This document shows, in pieces, positions 33,331 through 40,156 of a DNA stretch of 64,000 nucleotides. Position 1 is the stretch's first letter. Each line of letters opens with the position of its first letter. Source of the DNA: Pseudobacteriovorax antillogorgiicola (lineage in GTDB: Bacteria > Bdellovibrionota_B > Oligoflexia > Oligoflexales > Oligoflexaceae); contig NZ_FWZT01000031.1 in NCBI RefSeq assembly GCF_900177345.1, positions 1-64,000 of the forward strand, read 5' to 3'. Made by a program: the position numbers and the translations under genes. Below the pieces are notes generated by a model. The model was not told the origin of the DNA. It worked only from the letters and a program-made list of their open reading frames with translations, and ran no database searches.

Positions 33331-34308
33331 TTAACCCAAGCGTCGTGCATCATGAGGGATCACTTGGTTATGAATGAGATCTTGCTGGCTCATGAACAGC
33401 TCCAAAACTGAAAGGGATTCTTCAATCATCCTTCGCCCATGGCCTATAGGAATCCGTCCTGTATCTGATAATAAGGTAAATATTCCGTCGCTCTTGCCCT
33501 GGTCAAGATCTACTGTAAGATAGTCTCTTTGAAAAAGTTTGAAGGTAAACATCTTCTGTAACAGCGTTTTTATAGGATGATCATCCAAGTAGATAGCTCG
33601 CTCGATAACTTCAAGCACTAGGTAGGCATGAAGGCTTCGCCGCTTATAAGCTTGCTCAAATGATTCGAAAACTTTCTTCGTTTCCTTTAGCACTAAGTCA
33701 TCCCAGCCTTGATTCAGATCGAGGGCTGACATAGAGCCTTCCACAGTTAGCACGTACGCTTGCATATCGGTAATCATCGTTTCCATATGACGCGGCAAGC
33801 TTGCTTCAGAATCGTAGAAAGACTCAAGCCGAGTGGCAAGATACTTGCTTTGAGCGAAGGTTAGCTTAGCAATCTTCATAAATGTGCTAGGATCTTTCGC
33901 AAAAGCATTTTCTAGTGGAGTTTCGGGGAATCTAAAAGAGTTAATAAAATAGCGAAACTTTGTATAGAATGGAATAGGATCGAGAAAGATGCTAAACCAG
34001 CGGCTCCGACAGGTAAAATCATCTGAGTTCGCCCAATGCTCGAATTTTATCCATTCAATCTCCAGTCTTTTTTTGGAACCTGTTAGCTTTGAGCTTACAA
34101 AACATACTGGGAGATGAGCAAGCTTGTGGAGCAACCATTGGCAGGAGTCATGCTCAGGTTTTTGAGAAAAAAAGGACAAACCTTCGATAACCCGATTGCG
34201 ATCAGAATGATCTAGGTTGATGTAAATCTGCTCTCTGGGTCCTTGAAGTATCAAACGCTTTCCCTGAACAGCTCCCGATATATCTGGATATGGCAAATAG
34301 TATCTCAT
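33331..34308 (-). CDS. Cytosolic protein of unknown function after the stator-like operon
   Basis: 325 aa from the ATG at 34308, which has GGGAGA 4 bp upstream. It has no signal peptide or TM segment. An N-terminal beta-rich part (about 1-130) is followed by a long helical region. I recognise no family. It starts only 39 bp after a strong terminator that closes the four-gene MotA/MotB-like operon. Little room remains for its own promoter, so readthrough may express it as a fifth, down-weighted gene of that operon. Confidence 0.65.
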   Translation of the reverse strand: MRYYLPYPDISGAVQGKRLILQGPREQIYINLDHSDRNRVIEGLSFFSQKPEHDSCQWLLHKLAHLPVCFVSSKLTGSKKRLEIEWIKFEHWANSDDFTCRSRWFSIFLDPIPFYTKFRYFINSFRFPETPLENAFAKDPSTFMKIAKLTFAQSKYLATRLESFYDSEASLPRHMETMITDMQAYVLTVEGSMSALDLNQGWDDLVLKETKKVFESFEQAYKRRSLHAYLVLEVIERAIYLDDHPIKTLLQKMFTFKLFQRDYLTVDLDQGKSDGIFTLLSDTGRIPIGHGRRMIEESLSVLELFMSQQDLIHNQVIPHDARRLG

Positions 34309-34347
34309 GACATCTCCCTGCGGTTCATCCCAGTGTATCACTGTGGC

Positions 34348-34375
34348 AAAAAAAAAGCTGCCAAACGGCAGCTTT
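34348..34375 (-). terminator. Rho-independent terminator after the stator-like operon
   Basis: On the minus strand AAAGCTGCC pairs perfectly with GGCAGCTTT around a GTTT loop, followed by an uninterrupted run of T (nine in total from the stem end). It lies 21 bp after the stop of the 906-aa protein gene and 39 bp before the next start codon. Just downstream is CAGTGTATCACTG (34331-34343), a small palindrome. Confidence 0.92.
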
Positions 34376-34395
34376 CTGGATCAGATTATATTGTA

Positions 34396-37116
34396 TTAAG
34401 GTTCTTTCGGGTCTGAAGGCAGCAGGGGAGGTATTTTATTTTTCTCTCGCTCCTCCTTGGCCTCAGCGATCTTTCGCTTCTGCTCATCGATTCTAAAGGT
34501 ATAGATATCATTATAGTGGACAGATTCGTAGACCTTGTAGCCAGCTGCCCCTATGAGAGCTAAGATCAGAGCTAATCGAGCCAAGCGTACAATCACACTG
34601 GTACGTCGTTTCACTCTCTGCTTCGAGCTGATATGATGATTGAGCCAAACAATTCTATTTTTGAACGTTGCATTATTAAAGTAGCTATCCTCTTCTGATT
34701 CTTTATCTTCAGCAAGAATGATGTCGAGAATCTCATGACTTCGAATCCAAAGCTGCTGACCATCGGCATTGTTGGTTAACACTGATTTATCATCATTTTG
34801 ACGTAAATATAAATATTGAAGCATATGAGGAATTCCACGATAGGCTGCTACCAAAGAATCCTTAATCAAATGAGGATAGCGGCTGTAGTTACGCTTATAG
34901 GTTCGCGTCAGATACTCTCCAAAGGACCTAAATCCGCCAGGCAGCCTCCAACGTACTTCAGACAAAGAATTGCTGAAGCTTTTGAACAAGCTGTGCCTAG
35001 CATAAACGGCACCGAGTTCACTGAGGAGAAGACCATACATAAAGTCCTGGTAGTGTTCAGTCCGTGTCTCCACCTTGCGAACAAAGTCTGGATCTTCGTC
35101 CTCTTCTTGATCCACAGCTTGCTCTGGGAGCTCTGGCTCTGGCTCATCGACGGACAAGCCTTTCTCACCCAACGCTTCGACTTCGAAGTCTTTAAACGAT
35201 GTAAGATTCTTAAACTGTTCGAACTTCATAAACTTGGATTTGAGCTTTTTATCTTGTCTGATCTTTAATTCCTCGTCCTCGTCCTCGTCCTCTGAATCTA
35301 GTTCTTCGCTATCTTCATCGGGCTCGAAGGTCACCGGAATCTCCTCGATTGGTGCAGTATCATCTTCGGGCTGATCCTCTAGATTTCCTATGGCAAGATC
35401 AATTAACTCCTGATCAATCACAATTCGAGCCTTGCCTAGAGCACCACCGTAGCTAATCACACCCTCCGCCTTTTGTGCTAAAAATAGGGTATTTTTGATC
35501 AGCCGTGGCTCCATCGTCAGGTCATTACGGGCTAGGTATTCTTCAAAGTAGCGCTGGAGGGCTTTATGATGCTCATTGTCAGAGCGGGCCTTACCGATGA
35601 TTCGTTTTCTATCCTTTATAAGAGTCAGACTCTCCGAAATCAAGGCGAGAACAAACAAACTTAGCAAACCAATCACAGGGACTGCCAAGGTCCAATAGAG
35701 TAAGTCGGGTAGCAGTGATGACTGTTTTAGCCACCACAAAATCCCAATACTTGGAGCTAAAACAATTGTCATAATCACCAAGCGCCAGCTCGAAATCAGA
35801 GCCCATGATTTGAGTAACGAGGGTTGAACACGGTTTGCAAAACTATCAAAACCATAGATCCTAGGGAAAATAACCTTGCTAAGAAACACCAGCATGAGAC
35901 CCCAAAGGAGACCGCCAACGATTGGATAGATCTTTAGGCCAATTTCTAGCAGAACTGCGGGAACACTATAAGGATCGTCGATTCCCAGGATTTCAAAAAA
36001 TTTTTCTTTACTAACCAAGTCTTCGGAGGTTAGTGCTTCAAGGTCCTGACGAGCCTCAATAGAATCTAGAATGCCTCCATGACGACTGAACGCTCGGATC
36101 TTTTTGAACATTTCTATCTTGAAATGATTCAAATCACTTCCAGCTTTAATCTTGTAAATGCTGTCTGATATGAGTTCTTCGTTTTGTATATCATAGATTT
36201 GAAGGATTAGATCATCGTAAACGATCTTACCTTTTATGAAGATATGAACACCTTCTCGACCAAGCCACTCTAATTGGCAATTGAGTGGATAACATGTTTC
36301 ATGAAACTCAGCTGGTGCGGGACGGCCTTCGAGACGCTCAAAGCCTGAAAGGACGTGAAAGGTTGTGCGCTCCATCGCTCTTGCTATCCAGCCATGCTGA
36401 AAAAGGTCCGATTCAAAGCTAACAACAAAAACTCCAGGCATCTTCTGCTCGTCCTTGTCCTCCTCCTCAGATTCTTGGGGCTTTTCCTTAGCCTTAATGA
36501 GGCCCTGAGTCATCGATGCATCAGCCGTTATAAATTGGATCAAGGCTGATGAGCATGCCTGCCATGTGGAATGTCCATAGTCTGCTTGTTTCCGGCAGAA
36601 GGAATCTATTGAGATCGCAAAACAATCCTCTTTCCGCGTTAAGCAAGTAATCTCTGGGGATATACGAAAGCTTGTGGCTAGCTCAGCATAGCGATTCCAT
36701 AGCTCTTCTTGTAGTGAATTTTTGTGGCTATCAGGACTTTGCAGGATTTTTACCTGCTCTCGTGCGCTAATGAAGTCACGAAGACCTAGCTCTCCAGCGA
36801 CAAGAATATCGAGAACCTTGTGACAACCATTGCGATCTCGCTCGTCAAACTCTTGGCAGTAGTCTTTCGCACCTTGACTCAAACACTGTACTTTTAATTC
36901 CAGATCCGAGGACCGGCAACTTGTCTTCTTCATAAAAGCTACGTATTCACGGAACTTGTTTATGTCGTCCTTGCTATAAAGGGTAAAATGATCGATTGCC
37001 TGCCGTATATGCTCCGCGCGATTTACTGCTGCATAGGGAGAACCATCGCCATCTTGTGCTGACAATGAAGCGAAGGGTAAGCTGACTAGAATCAGAAGGA
37101 CTATCGATCGCATCAT
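34396..37116 (-). CDS. Large envelope protein with Cys-rich periplasmic domain, 4th gene of the stator-like operon
   Basis: 906 aa. Signal peptide (cleavage near SLSA-Q21), then a periplasmic domain (about 22-390) with ten Cys (67, 78, 87, 98, 158, 165, 174, 188, 275, 280). None occurs after it. TM segments lie at about 391-415, 440-463 and 470-497. A cytoplasmic part follows with a very acidic stretch (about 595-617), then a TM at about 842-860 and a short tail. Residues 538-577 and 690-712 (ALGKARIVIDQELIDL; LLLSELGAVYARHSLF) faintly resemble an M48 metalloprotease with the HExxH lost. The ATG shares one base with the previous stop (TAATG). Function unknown. Confidence 0.8.
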   Translation of the reverse strand: MMRSIVLLILVSLPFASLSAQDGDGSPYAAVNRAEHIRQAIDHFTLYSKDDINKFREYVAFMKKTSCRSSDLELKVQCLSQGAKDYCQEFDERDRNGCHKVLDILVAGELGLRDFISAREQVKILQSPDSHKNSLQEELWNRYAELATSFRISPEITCLTRKEDCFAISIDSFCRKQADYGHSTWQACSSALIQFITADASMTQGLIKAKEKPQESEEEDKDEQKMPGVFVVSFESDLFQHGWIARAMERTTFHVLSGFERLEGRPAPAEFHETCYPLNCQLEWLGREGVHIFIKGKIVYDDLILQIYDIQNEELISDSIYKIKAGSDLNHFKIEMFKKIRAFSRHGGILDSIEARQDLEALTSEDLVSKEKFFEILGIDDPYSVPAVLLEIGLKIYPIVGGLLWGLMLVFLSKVIFPRIYGFDSFANRVQPSLLKSWALISSWRLVIMTIVLAPSIGILWWLKQSSLLPDLLYWTLAVPVIGLLSLFVLALISESLTLIKDRKRIIGKARSDNEHHKALQRYFEEYLARNDLTMEPRLIKNTLFLAQKAEGVISYGGALGKARIVIDQELIDLAIGNLEDQPEDDTAPIEEIPVTFEPDEDSEELDSEDEDEDEELKIRQDKKLKSKFMKFEQFKNLTSFKDFEVEALGEKGLSVDEPEPELPEQAVDQEEDEDPDFVRKVETRTEHYQDFMYGLLLSELGAVYARHSLFKSFSNSLSEVRWRLPGGFRSFGEYLTRTYKRNYSRYPHLIKDSLVAAYRGIPHMLQYLYLRQNDDKSVLTNNADGQQLWIRSHEILDIILAEDKESEEDSYFNNATFKNRIVWLNHHISSKQRVKRRTSVIVRLARLALILALIGAAGYKVYESVHYNDIYTFRIDEQKRKIAEAKEEREKNKIPPLLPSDPKEP

Positions 37117-38738
37117 TATAACCTCCCCCGAGAGTTTCGATACTCCTTGCGAAAGGAATCAACAAAATTGTACAAATGTAGATGCCAAGGATAGACTTCT
37201 AGAAGATCAGGCTGCTCTTGTAGCCAATCGTGCCCTAACATAATGTCTGCCTTGCGGAGATACTCAAGCTGCGTCAGAAGCATCGGTGACACTTCTTCAA
37301 ATCGAGCTGCAAAGTCCTCTTCAGAGCTCGAAGCTAACTCTTGATTGCTGAGATAGGTGGAATAGGAAAAGTGAGGAATTAGGGTTTTAGCTAAACCCTT
37401 CATTACTTTTCGCGGCAGCTTATGAGGTTTGACTTGATCCTCTTGAACCAGAGTCACCGTAGCACTAGCCACATCCTGCCCGGAAATAGTATACGTCCTA
37501 CTTTCAACTTCTTGAGCTAGCTCATTAAAGTTTAGACATTGGAATGACACGACGCGAGATAGTAGATGCTCTCGTGGCCGCTCGTCATAGCCACCAAGAT
37601 ATGCAAGTGAATCCTGTCTTTGAAGAACATCGTTGACATCGCTCCAAATACCATGATCTTTCAAAAACTCCTCGGGATTGGCTGACAGTCTATCACAACT
37701 ATCAGTATCAGCAGCCCAATGAATCGCAAATTCACGACAGAATCCAGCTGCTGGTTGATGCCGATCATTGAACAGGAGATGGGCGTAGGAGAATTCAAAG
37801 TTCTGACTGTTGTAGGTGTCCCAACCGTGTTCAAGGCGAATCGTATGAGGCAAGTCAGAATACTTTTGTAAGCAGTAGTTCGATTCAGTCAACTCGCGGA
37901 ACCTTTGCTCTAAAGATTGGGGCGGCTTAGCCAAGTTTGTAAAAATATGATGAACGCTATGGGGACTAGCCTCCATGGAGTGTTGCTGGGCCTTGACCAA
38001 CTTATCAAGATTAGCAGTTTTCTCCTTGAAGTCTTTGACTTGATCACTGACAGAATTTTCGTTCAGCCAAAGATCGAAATTTTGATAAACTGTTTCTAAC
38101 TGGCGGTAGGTAAAATGAAGGAACGGTTCATCCTTCTGCCTCTTGTAGCAAATTCCATCTTCCCCCTCTTGCTGATCTTTCTTCGTTTCACAGTCACCCA
38201 AAGAATCGCTATAGCCAAGCTTGTAAGCACGAATGACAAGCTCACAACCTGGTGGCACCTGTTCTTCAGCCTCTGCCTCGTCATCTTCATCAGGGCAGTA
38301 TTGATTGTTGGACTCTTCGAAATAGCGTGGGGCATCAGCCATCAAGATCAGCGTCCGGCTGTTGACAACTAGCATTGTGATCAGAAAGAAAGCTGGAAGT
38401 AGCAAAGCTTTCTGCAACCACAGAGGAAGCTCTAAGGCGGGTCGCCCACGATTCTCAAACAGGGAAAACTCCAGACGGAAGATATTCAAAAGAACAACTT
38501 TTCCTGGCAGTTCTTGCCCTCGTTTCAAAATTGAAAAGCCAAAATCACTGGCTCGTCTTTGCCCGAGAAGACGTCCACAAATGTCTGTAAATAGTAAGGT
38601 CAAACCACCAATGACAGTCAGGGTTAATGGTTGCAATCGTTCGATGTATGATAGTTTAAACAGATCCAAAGCCCAACCCAGGCCTAATAAGGCAGCGAGA
38701 AGGGTGAGAATCGTGATAGTTCTAAGTCCAATTTTCAC
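37116..38738 (-). CDS. Membrane protein with Cys-rich periplasmic domain, 3rd gene of the stator-like operon
   Basis: 540 aa, GTG start 3 bp after the stop of the MotB-like gene. Three TM segments (about 7-26, 36-56, 105-130) put the large C-terminal region in the periplasm. This fits its eight Cys (148, 165, 183, 197, 289, 334, 348, 401), an even number suited to disulfides. The first periplasmic loop has an acidic run (DEDDEAEAEE). No family is recognised and no catalytic motif is visible. It is not similar to ZorC, despite the similar length, in having N-terminal TM helices. The stop overlaps the next start. Confidence 0.8.
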   Translation of the reverse strand: MKIGLRTITILTLLAALLGLGWALDLFKLSYIERLQPLTLTVIGGLTLLFTDICGRLLGQRRASDFGFSILKRGQELPGKVVLLNIFRLEFSLFENRGRPALELPLWLQKALLLPAFFLITMLVVNSRTLILMADAPRYFEESNNQYCPDEDDEAEAEEQVPPGCELVIRAYKLGYSDSLGDCETKKDQQEGEDGICYKRQKDEPFLHFTYRQLETVYQNFDLWLNENSVSDQVKDFKEKTANLDKLVKAQQHSMEASPHSVHHIFTNLAKPPQSLEQRFRELTESNYCLQKYSDLPHTIRLEHGWDTYNSQNFEFSYAHLLFNDRHQPAAGFCREFAIHWAADTDSCDRLSANPEEFLKDHGIWSDVNDVLQRQDSLAYLGGYDERPREHLLSRVVSFQCLNFNELAQEVESRTYTISGQDVASATVTLVQEDQVKPHKLPRKVMKGLAKTLIPHFSYSTYLSNQELASSSEEDFAARFEEVSPMLLTQLEYLRKADIMLGHDWLQEQPDLLEVYPWHLHLYNFVDSFRKEYRNSRGRL

Positions 38739-38741
38739 AAT

Positions 38742-39341
38742 TTACTCTTCATTATCAAAGCGATTCACCGTTCGATCTTCAATAGTGATTCGACGATTCT
38801 TAGATTTCAAACCTCTCAAGATCTCCCGTTGTTCCTTAGAGATCTTTCCTTTAAACAGTGGAACTTCTTCCACCGGAGAGTTGTCTGCATGGGTACATAT
38901 CACAGCATGCTCACTGAGACCTGGATTATAACGCTGAATTTCCTGATAGGCTGATAACGCCCGTCGGTATCCTAGATCAATATTTTTTGACTTTTGGCCA
39001 TCGTTATCAGTATGCCCGTGGATTACAATCATTCGTTTAACAACACCATTGTCATCGAAACCCAGAACACCATTACCATCTTGATCCCGAAACAATTTTC
39101 CAAGGACATCCTTACCCTCACCTGAAAGGCTTGCCTTACCAGGAGAGAAGAGAACATCACCAGGTAGATTGATCAATCGAGTGGTGACATCGCCAATGGT
39201 ATCGCTGATGCCATCGTCTGCACCCGGACTCAAAGACCAGATGATAACGAAGAAAACCATGATATTGGTCATCAAATCCATGTAGATCACCTGCCAAGAT
39301 GGATTCCGACCTTTTCTGCGTCGCAGATTTACTCGACTCAA
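38742..39341 (-). CDS. MotB/OmpA-type stator subunit
   Basis: 199 aa, TTG start overlapping the previous stop by 4 bp (TTGA) with GAGGTAGAG upstream. A basic N-terminus precedes one TM segment, SWQVIYMDLMTNIMVFFVII, with Asp22 at the position of the proton-carrying Asp of MotB/ExbD/TolR. The periplasmic part is OmpA-like: VLFSPGKASLSGEG, VIHGHTDNDG, NIDLGYRRALSAYQEI and NRRITIEDRTV, which form the peptidoglycan-binding fold. It should anchor the complex to the cell wall and pass the ion through a channel with the MotA-like partner. Confidence 0.9.
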   Translation of the reverse strand: MSRVNLRRRKGRNPSWQVIYMDLMTNIMVFFVIIWSLSPGADDGISDTIGDVTTRLINLPGDVLFSPGKASLSGEGKDVLGKLFRDQDGNGVLGFDDNGVVKRMIVIHGHTDNDGQKSKNIDLGYRRALSAYQEIQRYNPGLSEHAVICTHADNSPVEEVPLFKGKISKEQREILRGLKSKNRRITIEDRTVNRFDNEE

Positions 39342-40156
39342 ATCTCTACCTCGACTTCATTCTTGTTTTCGATGATCACTTTGATAGCTTGACAAACAGT
39401 TTCATAATCATAGTCAAGGGCTTTGAGTCTTTGATCAAAGCGCGATCCCACGATCTTATAGACTGACGAGAAGACCGCACCGTAAAGTGTTGTCTTAAGA
39501 GCTAGAGCAAGCTGGGGAGTCAGTGATTCAATAGAAACGTTGGCACCTAAGCCATCAAACATGGCGATCAAACCTATGATAGTACCGATCAAACCGAAAA
39601 GTGGCATGGCGTCAGCGACAAACTCAAGGTTTGCATGAGAGTAGTCATAAAGCTCATGACACTCGGTATAGTATGAGTGGGCAACGAATTCTGCATATTC
39701 GTAGTCCTTACCATCTTTTGCCAATCGTTGGATGTCTCTAGTAAAGGGATTATCAGGAAGGCGAATAACTTCACCCTCAGCAACGGGACCAATTTTGATA
39801 TGGCCTTGCTTATTCTTTTTAATGGAAAGGGCCTTATTGAGGGCATCGTTGGTTTCTACTAGACATGCGGCTTTTTCGATCACATGACGACTTGAAAAGA
39901 AAACCGTAAACGATGAAAGAAAGATCTTCACCACATCTGTTCCCGCTACATAGACCATAAGGCCAACGGAGATAATCGCCATCGATACAAAGTAGTTCTC
40001 CGTAACGAAGAAGACGATCGATAGAAGTAAGAGCCCTACAAACCCTAAAAGCCCCACAACCCCGGCACCAGCACCCTTCTGGTTCACTCCCAATTTTGGT
40101 GCCTTAACTACTGCGCTGACAGCTGTTTTCTCTGCAGAGCCATTAAACTTAAACAT
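39338..40156 (-). CDS. MotA/TolQ/ExbB-type stator subunit
   Basis: 272 aa; AAGGAT lies 5 bp before the ATG. Four TM segments: about 30-50, 54-78, 185-212 and 222-243. The cytoplasmic loop between TM2 and TM3 is helical. The last two TMs carry the family pattern DAMPLFGLIGTIIGLIAMFD and LALALKTTLYGAVFSSVYKI. Together with the MotB-type protein it would form an ion-driven 5:2 rotary or force-generating complex. The N-terminal 25 residues contain a basic soluble segment. It is the first gene of the operon, so the whole set is named after it. Confidence 0.9.
   Translation of the reverse strand: MFKFNGSAEKTAVSAVVKAPKLGVNQKGAGAGVVGLLGFVGLLLLSIVFFVTENYFVSMAIISVGLMVYVAGTDVVKIFLSSFTVFFSSRHVIEKAACLVETNDALNKALSIKKNKQGHIKIGPVAEGEVIRLPDNPFTRDIQRLAKDGKDYEYAEFVAHSYYTECHELYDYSHANLEFVADAMPLFGLIGTIIGLIAMFDGLGANVSIESLTPQLALALKTTLYGAVFSSVYKIVGSRFDQRLKALDYDYETVCQAIKVIIENKNEVEVEI

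Follow-up and report, generated by a model that had tools for sequence, protein, structure and literature searches.

What does an ion-driven motor of the MotA/TolQ/ExbB kind do in an operon that it shares with large membrane proteins? The understood uses of this motor are, to our knowledge, few – swimming, Tol, Ton, gliding, type IX secretion and Zorya – and the question is raised by a locus in Pseudobacteriovorax antillogorgiicola, lying in the first 64,000 nucleotides of contig NZ_FWZT01000031.1 (the whole stretch analysed, here called the window; it belongs to C31, one of the contigs of a 7.28-Mb genome). The locus is a compact, self-contained cassette: an intact motor pair, A and B, with three dedicated partners, C, D1 and D2, of which C and D1 are without known relative. 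Sequences and structure models reveal a tightly coupled gene set whose members co-occur across genomes, with motor residues and cysteines conserved and with a modelled TolB-N-like fold in D2. We see a roughly even chance that the cassette encodes a peptidoglycan-anchored 5:2 motor driving one inner-membrane machine with the dedicated partners C, D1 and D2. The kind of motor is already known; the system built on it appears to be undescribed.

Organisation of the cassette

A preliminary description of this stretch had proposed a four-gene, stator-like operon at 34396-40156, and four minus-strand open reading frames (ORFs), here called A, B, C and D, do lie there. Their junctions are likewise as it gave them: a 4-bp overlap between A and B (TTGA), a 3-bp gap between B and C, and a 1-bp overlap between C and D (TAATG). 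The terminator that it saw at the end of the set is supported by folding, as a hairpin 18 bases past D followed by a T run, although a simple consensus terminator scan did not have this hairpin among its results. The features, including transmembrane (TM) helices, are these:

39338..40156, minus: A, MotA/TolQ/ExbB-type subunit; 272 aa, ATG start; four TM helices expected
38742..39341, minus: B, MotB-type subunit; 199 aa, TTG start; one TM helix and an OmpA-like peptidoglycan-binding domain
39276..39278, minus: Asp22 codon of B, ion-binding TM residue; invariant in 10 loci
37116..38738, minus: C; 540 aa, GTG start; three N-terminal TM helices and a large predicted periplasmic domain with 8 invariant Cys
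34396..37116, minus: D, whole ORF; 906 aa, ATG start
36502..37116, minus: D1 part of D; signal peptide and 8-Cys exported domain; own gene in other loci
34396..36441, minus: D2 part of D; membrane protein joined to D1 here; own gene in other loci
36082..36441, minus: TolB-N-like periplasmic domain of D2, as indicated by AlphaFold, Foldseek and hhalign
34618..35622, minus: degenerate M48-peptidase-like domain of D2, with acidic insertion (hhalign); the HExxH site reads SELGA
34346..34377, minus: hairpin with T run past the end of D, an intrinsic terminator; folding energy -16.1 kcal/mol, z -3.3

Judged by its sequence, D is two proteins fused – D1, exported and carrying eight Cys, and D2, an inner-membrane protein – a reading that follows from the presence of D1 and D2 as separate genes in other loci. 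The cassette therefore has five components rather than four, and in this respect the preliminary description has to be corrected. Just past the terminator lies a 336-aa gene (window 33331-34341, minus), which has no family match and is not conserved with the cassette.

Distribution and gene order

A comparison of neighbourhoods, asking whether the gene order is kept in relatives, answers in the affirmative: the cassette is found in ten further genomes from two phyla, complete or nearly so in nine and cut by the contig end in one (L096). Among 58 genomes of the window's phylum, a search with C returned two relatives: L014 (= L017, Oligoflexales DT_79), with the order A, B, C, a 203-aa exported protein and a 1092-aa membrane protein, and L015 (= L020, Oligoflexaceae RH-23may17), in which a large membrane protein comes before A, B, C and a small exported protein. 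Scanning genome contigs with the B alignment gave two further loci, L018 and L019, both arranged as D2-A-B-C-D1, the usual order of the cassette. In their phylum (369 genomes), searching with C added four loci (L055-L058), and searching with B the divergent L095 and the truncated L096.

The components keep close company. Full-length B is confined, in the window's phylum, to the three genomes that carry C, and in the phylum of 369 genomes one set of six contains all full-strength matches, whether the profile is that of B, C or D1. Nearly all loci join A, B, C and D1 through 1- or 4-bp overlaps, the exceptions being L057, where A and B abut, and L017, where taking the earliest possible start makes the C/D1 overlap 16 bp. 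D2 is the gene whose place in the cassette varies; that it has been relocated yet kept, and is fused to D1 in the window, argues for a shared function. Where D2 would be expected, L095 carries an ORF with one TM segment and a start that looks like a signal peptide; it shows no detectable similarity to D2 and is a D2 candidate by position only.

The carriers form a small, scattered set of Bdellovibrio-like lineages: three of the 58 genomes in the window's phylum and at most eight of the 369 in the other, or at most 11 of about 427 together. When A, B, C and D1 are combined in an unrooted tree, the window groups with L017, which belongs to a different family, and not with L020 from its own (support 99; the L020 branch is long), which suggests horizontal transfer of the cassette between families. 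No relative was found in plasmid and viral collections, and a match in G034 (E 2e-4) was rejected as a cassette relative: it sits in an HD-GYP-type protein. The flanking genes vary between most loci and look housekeeping-like or unrelated, not like defence islands. Downstream of the copies in L095 and L019, there is the same kind of gene (L095:12110-13219 and L019:12050-13096; ..TVCQVGAEPALKKE.., RlmM-like by eye), which hints at a shared neighbourhood. In L019, D2 is closely preceded by a FecR-domain gene (L019:4041-4853) that itself comes behind two response-regulator genes, a possible regulatory link.

The motor pair

The assignment of A and B as a MotA-type and a MotB/OmpA-type subunit holds. 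A matches PF01618 with 60 bits (cut-off 22.9), so that the MotA_ExbB channel domain is present, and B reaches 29.5 bits with MotB_plug, above the cut-off, and 23.5 bits with OmpA, just below it. Across loci, A measures 256-308 aa; its residues P185, T192 and T223, within the GxxGT..GL and ALKTTLYGA motifs, are invariant in nine loci, L019 having ALKNTLYGA in place of the latter. Equally invariant in nine loci are D22 in the TM segment of B and its OmpA core, HGHTD112...N120...R127 together with NRR, and even the divergent L095 retains D22, D112, N120 and R127 – Asp22 and the peptidoglycan-binding residues are thus as intact as had been claimed. The spacing of 15 between Asp and Arg in B corresponds to that of the peptidoglycan-binding pair of Acinetobacter OmpA. 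Since the motor residues are invariant, A and B are expected to conduct ions.

Could these be an ordinary flagellar stator pair that merely lies beside unrelated genes? A has PomA-like TM3/TM4 motifs, and B combines the TM segment of MotB with an OmpA domain; the flagellar stators (MotAB, PomAB and MotPS) share with the cassette the TM Asp, the Thr/Pro motifs of TM3/TM4 and the OmpA-like peptidoglycan-binding domain. The family scores, however, fall far short: among the NCBIfam stator models, A does best with PomA, at 57 bits against a cut-off of 341, and B stays at or below 29 bits with the MotB models, whose cut-offs are at least 259. Membership of the flagellar stators was rejected, A and B lying far below every equivalog cut-off. 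C and D1, moreover, strictly co-occur with A/B and overlap them, the cassette operon includes three obligatory non-flagellar partners, and no flagellar genes turned up next to the copies, all of which makes this explanation extremely improbable.

Other MotA/MotB pairs are also distant, the best A-type score being 41 bits (E. coli TolQ; 39 within the own genome) and the best B-type score 35 bits. Against PDB, A matches MotA, PomA and TolQ about equally (44-40 bits), and the best match of B is chain 8qyd_F, which we take to be ZorB. In PADLOC, too, B comes closest to ZorB1 (5e-13), but the NCBIfam model of ZorB gives it only 20 bits against a cut-off of 400.

This nearness to ZorB brings up a Zorya-like defence or damage sensor, in which the motor would sense envelope perturbation and signal via its partners. 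Zorya systems of all types combine ZorA and ZorB with ZorCD, ZorE or ZorFG; the tail of ZorA has an important part in their function (PMC11890865). The cassette resembles them in its MotA/MotB-type pair, in having two further large proteins downstream and in its rarity and patchy distribution, with transfer between families suggested by the tree. Its A, however, is without the long cytoplasmic tail, aligning to 50-70 positions of ZorA models that span 545-590, and its partners are predicted periplasmic or membrane proteins – membrane or exported, with conserved Cys. Searches with Pfam, NCBIfam and PADLOC found no ZorC, ZorD, ZorE, ZorF or ZorG in C, D or the neighbouring gene, PADLOC being empty for C and D, and the neighbourhoods described above do not resemble defence islands. 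Membership of Zorya was rejected for these missing features, the ZorA tail and the effector genes; the preliminary description had likewise kept the locus apart from Zorya, in that it has neither helicase nor nuclease and C carries N-terminal TM helices. We regard such a sensor as improbable.

A recent phylogeny of MotAB sets apart the generic ion transporters, a varied class whose appendages are unknown, and reports that their B subunits have no discernible homology to OmpA (PMC12505986). The cassette is comparable to this class (ExbBD, TolQR, AglRS and unknowns) as a non-flagellar MotA/TolQ/ExbB motor with lineage-specific partners, but differs from it in the OmpA-like domain of B.

The genome is unusually rich in stator-type motors, with 18 MotA_ExbB matches. 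On contig C26 (L078:3591-8198, minus) we find another uncharacterised MotA/MotB operon, whose partners are a single-TM protein of 565 aa that belongs to no family, a protein resembling a TPR lipoprotein, and exported proteins.

The partners C and D1

By hydropathy, C begins with three TM helices, followed by a large domain that is predicted to be periplasmic if the N-terminus lies inside. Nine loci share eight cysteines of C without exception (148, 165, 183, 197, 289, 334, 348 and 401), some of which are also present in L095. D1, which opens with what looks like a signal peptide, carries eight Cys as well, none of them changed in the nine loci; the corresponding stretch of L095 likewise holds eight. 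The earlier picture of two large, Cys-rich periplasmic partners thus survives as regards the conserved cysteines in predicted periplasmic domains, but not as regards the 906-aa protein, which is the D1-D2 fusion.

No credible match to C or D was found in Pfam, NCBIfam, PADLOC or PHROG, relatives of C and D2 gave only noise against Pfam at E up to 10, and no solved structure is similar to C or D1. The proposal that no known system matches the cassette holds as far as family searches and the open literature go, the latter having yielded no description of the A/B/C/D1/D2 set.

The same searches bear on a motility or predation machine, in which the motor would drive surface gliding, or the motion of envelope complexes when cells attach or enter prey, on the model of AglRQS/Glt in Myxococcus. 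Gliding machines use a peptidoglycan-anchored motor with periplasmic partners, and such a role would suit both the Bdellovibrio-like lineages of the carriers and a genome rich in stator-type motors. Yet neither C nor D matches the partner families of Agl/Glt, Gld/Por or Ton in Pfam or NCBIfam, the Agl/Glt, Gld and Por families were undetected in any part of the cassette, C and D2 are unrelated to them by sequence, and the cassette has neither an outer-membrane adhesin nor a regulator linked to it. We consider this role unlikely.

D2 and its domains

The AlphaFold model of D2 has an overall predicted local distance difference test score (pLDDT) of 49.9, with residues 1-120 at 59-84 per block, and shows in the first ~118 residues a moderately confident b-a-b-a-b-b-b-a domain (b, strand; a, helix). 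Foldseek places Acinetobacter TolB on top (E 1.6e-4 and 3.8e-4), then GNA1162, PelC, TolB-Pal and LpoB, with CsgG lower. An hhalign comparison with a TolB-N profile, based on E. coli TolB alone, scores 26.0; shuffling the columns 60 times gave nothing above 17.7. As modelled, the N-terminal domain of D2 is of TolB-N-like fold. Homology of the large proteins to Mot, Tol, Exb, Agl, Glt or Zorya components, which the preliminary description had named as grounds against a new system, is thereby found for Tol alone, at the level of fold only and in one domain of D2, C and D1 being without match.

A TolB-N-like domain adjoining a TolQ-superfamily motor could also point to a second, derived Tol-like system that stabilises the outer membrane, and the OmpA-like peptidoglycan-binding domain is a further likeness to Tol-Pal. 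However, no TolR, TolA, TolB propeller or Pal was found within the cassette by Pfam or NCBIfam, the TolB-N-like domain of D2 is membrane-tethered, and C and D1 have no Tol counterpart; besides, the genome seems to own a separate tol cluster, with TolB_N and PF01618 matches 2 kb apart on contig C10. The likelihood of a derived Tol-like system is, in our judgement, small.

After the N-terminal domain, D2 has three TM helices and then a predicted cytoplasmic part that aligns by profile with M48 peptidases, the HExxH position included. The hhalign score of this middle domain (37.6, E 1.8e-4; 100 shuffles reach no more than 21.3, and the reversed and unrelated controls stay within 15.8) is a moderate result of one comparison, worked on a chosen subset of columns, those of the insertion-free L020 copy. 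The whole of D2 gave nothing against M48, because of the long acidic insertion. M56 was tried as an alternative family and, at 16.7 only, is unsupported. The HExxH motif is lost in all seven D2 copies compared (DGLAR, SELGA, SEIGH, HQFGM, REQGV, REVGK and REVGV), and the domain is missing altogether from L055 and L056, whose D2 proteins have 370 and 249 aa; the M48-like domain is for these reasons accessory and probably inactive. A domain that two loci lack cannot be an obligatory receiver of force, a role for which C is the better candidate.

An optional sixth gene

In four loci, a gene for a pyridoxal phosphate (PLP) enzyme of the KBL/AONS type directly follows D1:

L018:10815-11996
L019:10869-12053
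L057:7746-8942
L058:6817-8010

Three of these genes share 1 or 4 bp with D1, and the one in L058, whose protein scores 328 bits against E. coli KBL, begins 8 bp after it. At the PLP lysine position, L057 and L058 keep Lys, whereas L018 and L019 have His, and the latter two copies consequently look like pseudoenzymes.

A putative trans-envelope machine

If the cassette does encode a single peptidoglycan-anchored machine, five copies of A would surround a dimer of B as an ion-driven 5:2 motor, with ions passing Asp22 of B and the Thr/Pro ring of A and their flow producing rotation, while the OmpA-like domain of B would hold the motor to the peptidoglycan. C would contribute its three TM helices and a periplasmic domain stabilised by disulfides, D1 would be the exported eight-Cys partner, and D2 would hold its TolB-N-like domain in the periplasm by a membrane anchor and would often carry the degenerate M48-like domain on the cytoplasmic side. 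Force might then reach the periplasmic partners by way of C's TM helices and perhaps of D2, so that C, D1 and D2 would couple the movement of the motor to something periplasmic or in the outer membrane, in the way that TolA and TolB serve TolQR.

Several points weigh against such a machine. That A, B, C, D1 and D2 form a complex is something we infer from the genes, and their patchy distribution is unlike that of housekeeping envelope systems. The TolB-N fold is common to LpoB, PelC and CsgG, proteins unrelated to motors. Structure prediction, from which the preliminary description had hoped for both large proteins, delivered the fold of the D2 N-terminal domain but left the model of C, with a pLDDT of 46.5, unusable for fold search. 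No gene among the neighbours of the cassette indicates a cargo.

Going further, we tentatively entertain a distinct class of trans-envelope machine, built on the peptidoglycan-anchored 5:2 motor, with C, D1 and a membrane-tethered TolB-N-like D2 as obligatory parts and a task that would be none of swimming, gliding, Tol, Ton, type IX secretion or phage defence. Inactivated enzyme folds – the pseudo-M48 domain and, in some loci, the KBL-like protein without its PLP lysine – would serve in it as structural or sensory parts.

Because the cassette is accessory and forms a single operon, deletion and transfer experiments should be straightforward, and they may bring to light a further task of ion-driven motors as well as a use of the TolB-N-like domain outside Tol-Pal. 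Its Bdellovibrio-like carriers probably own an undescribed trans-envelope machine.

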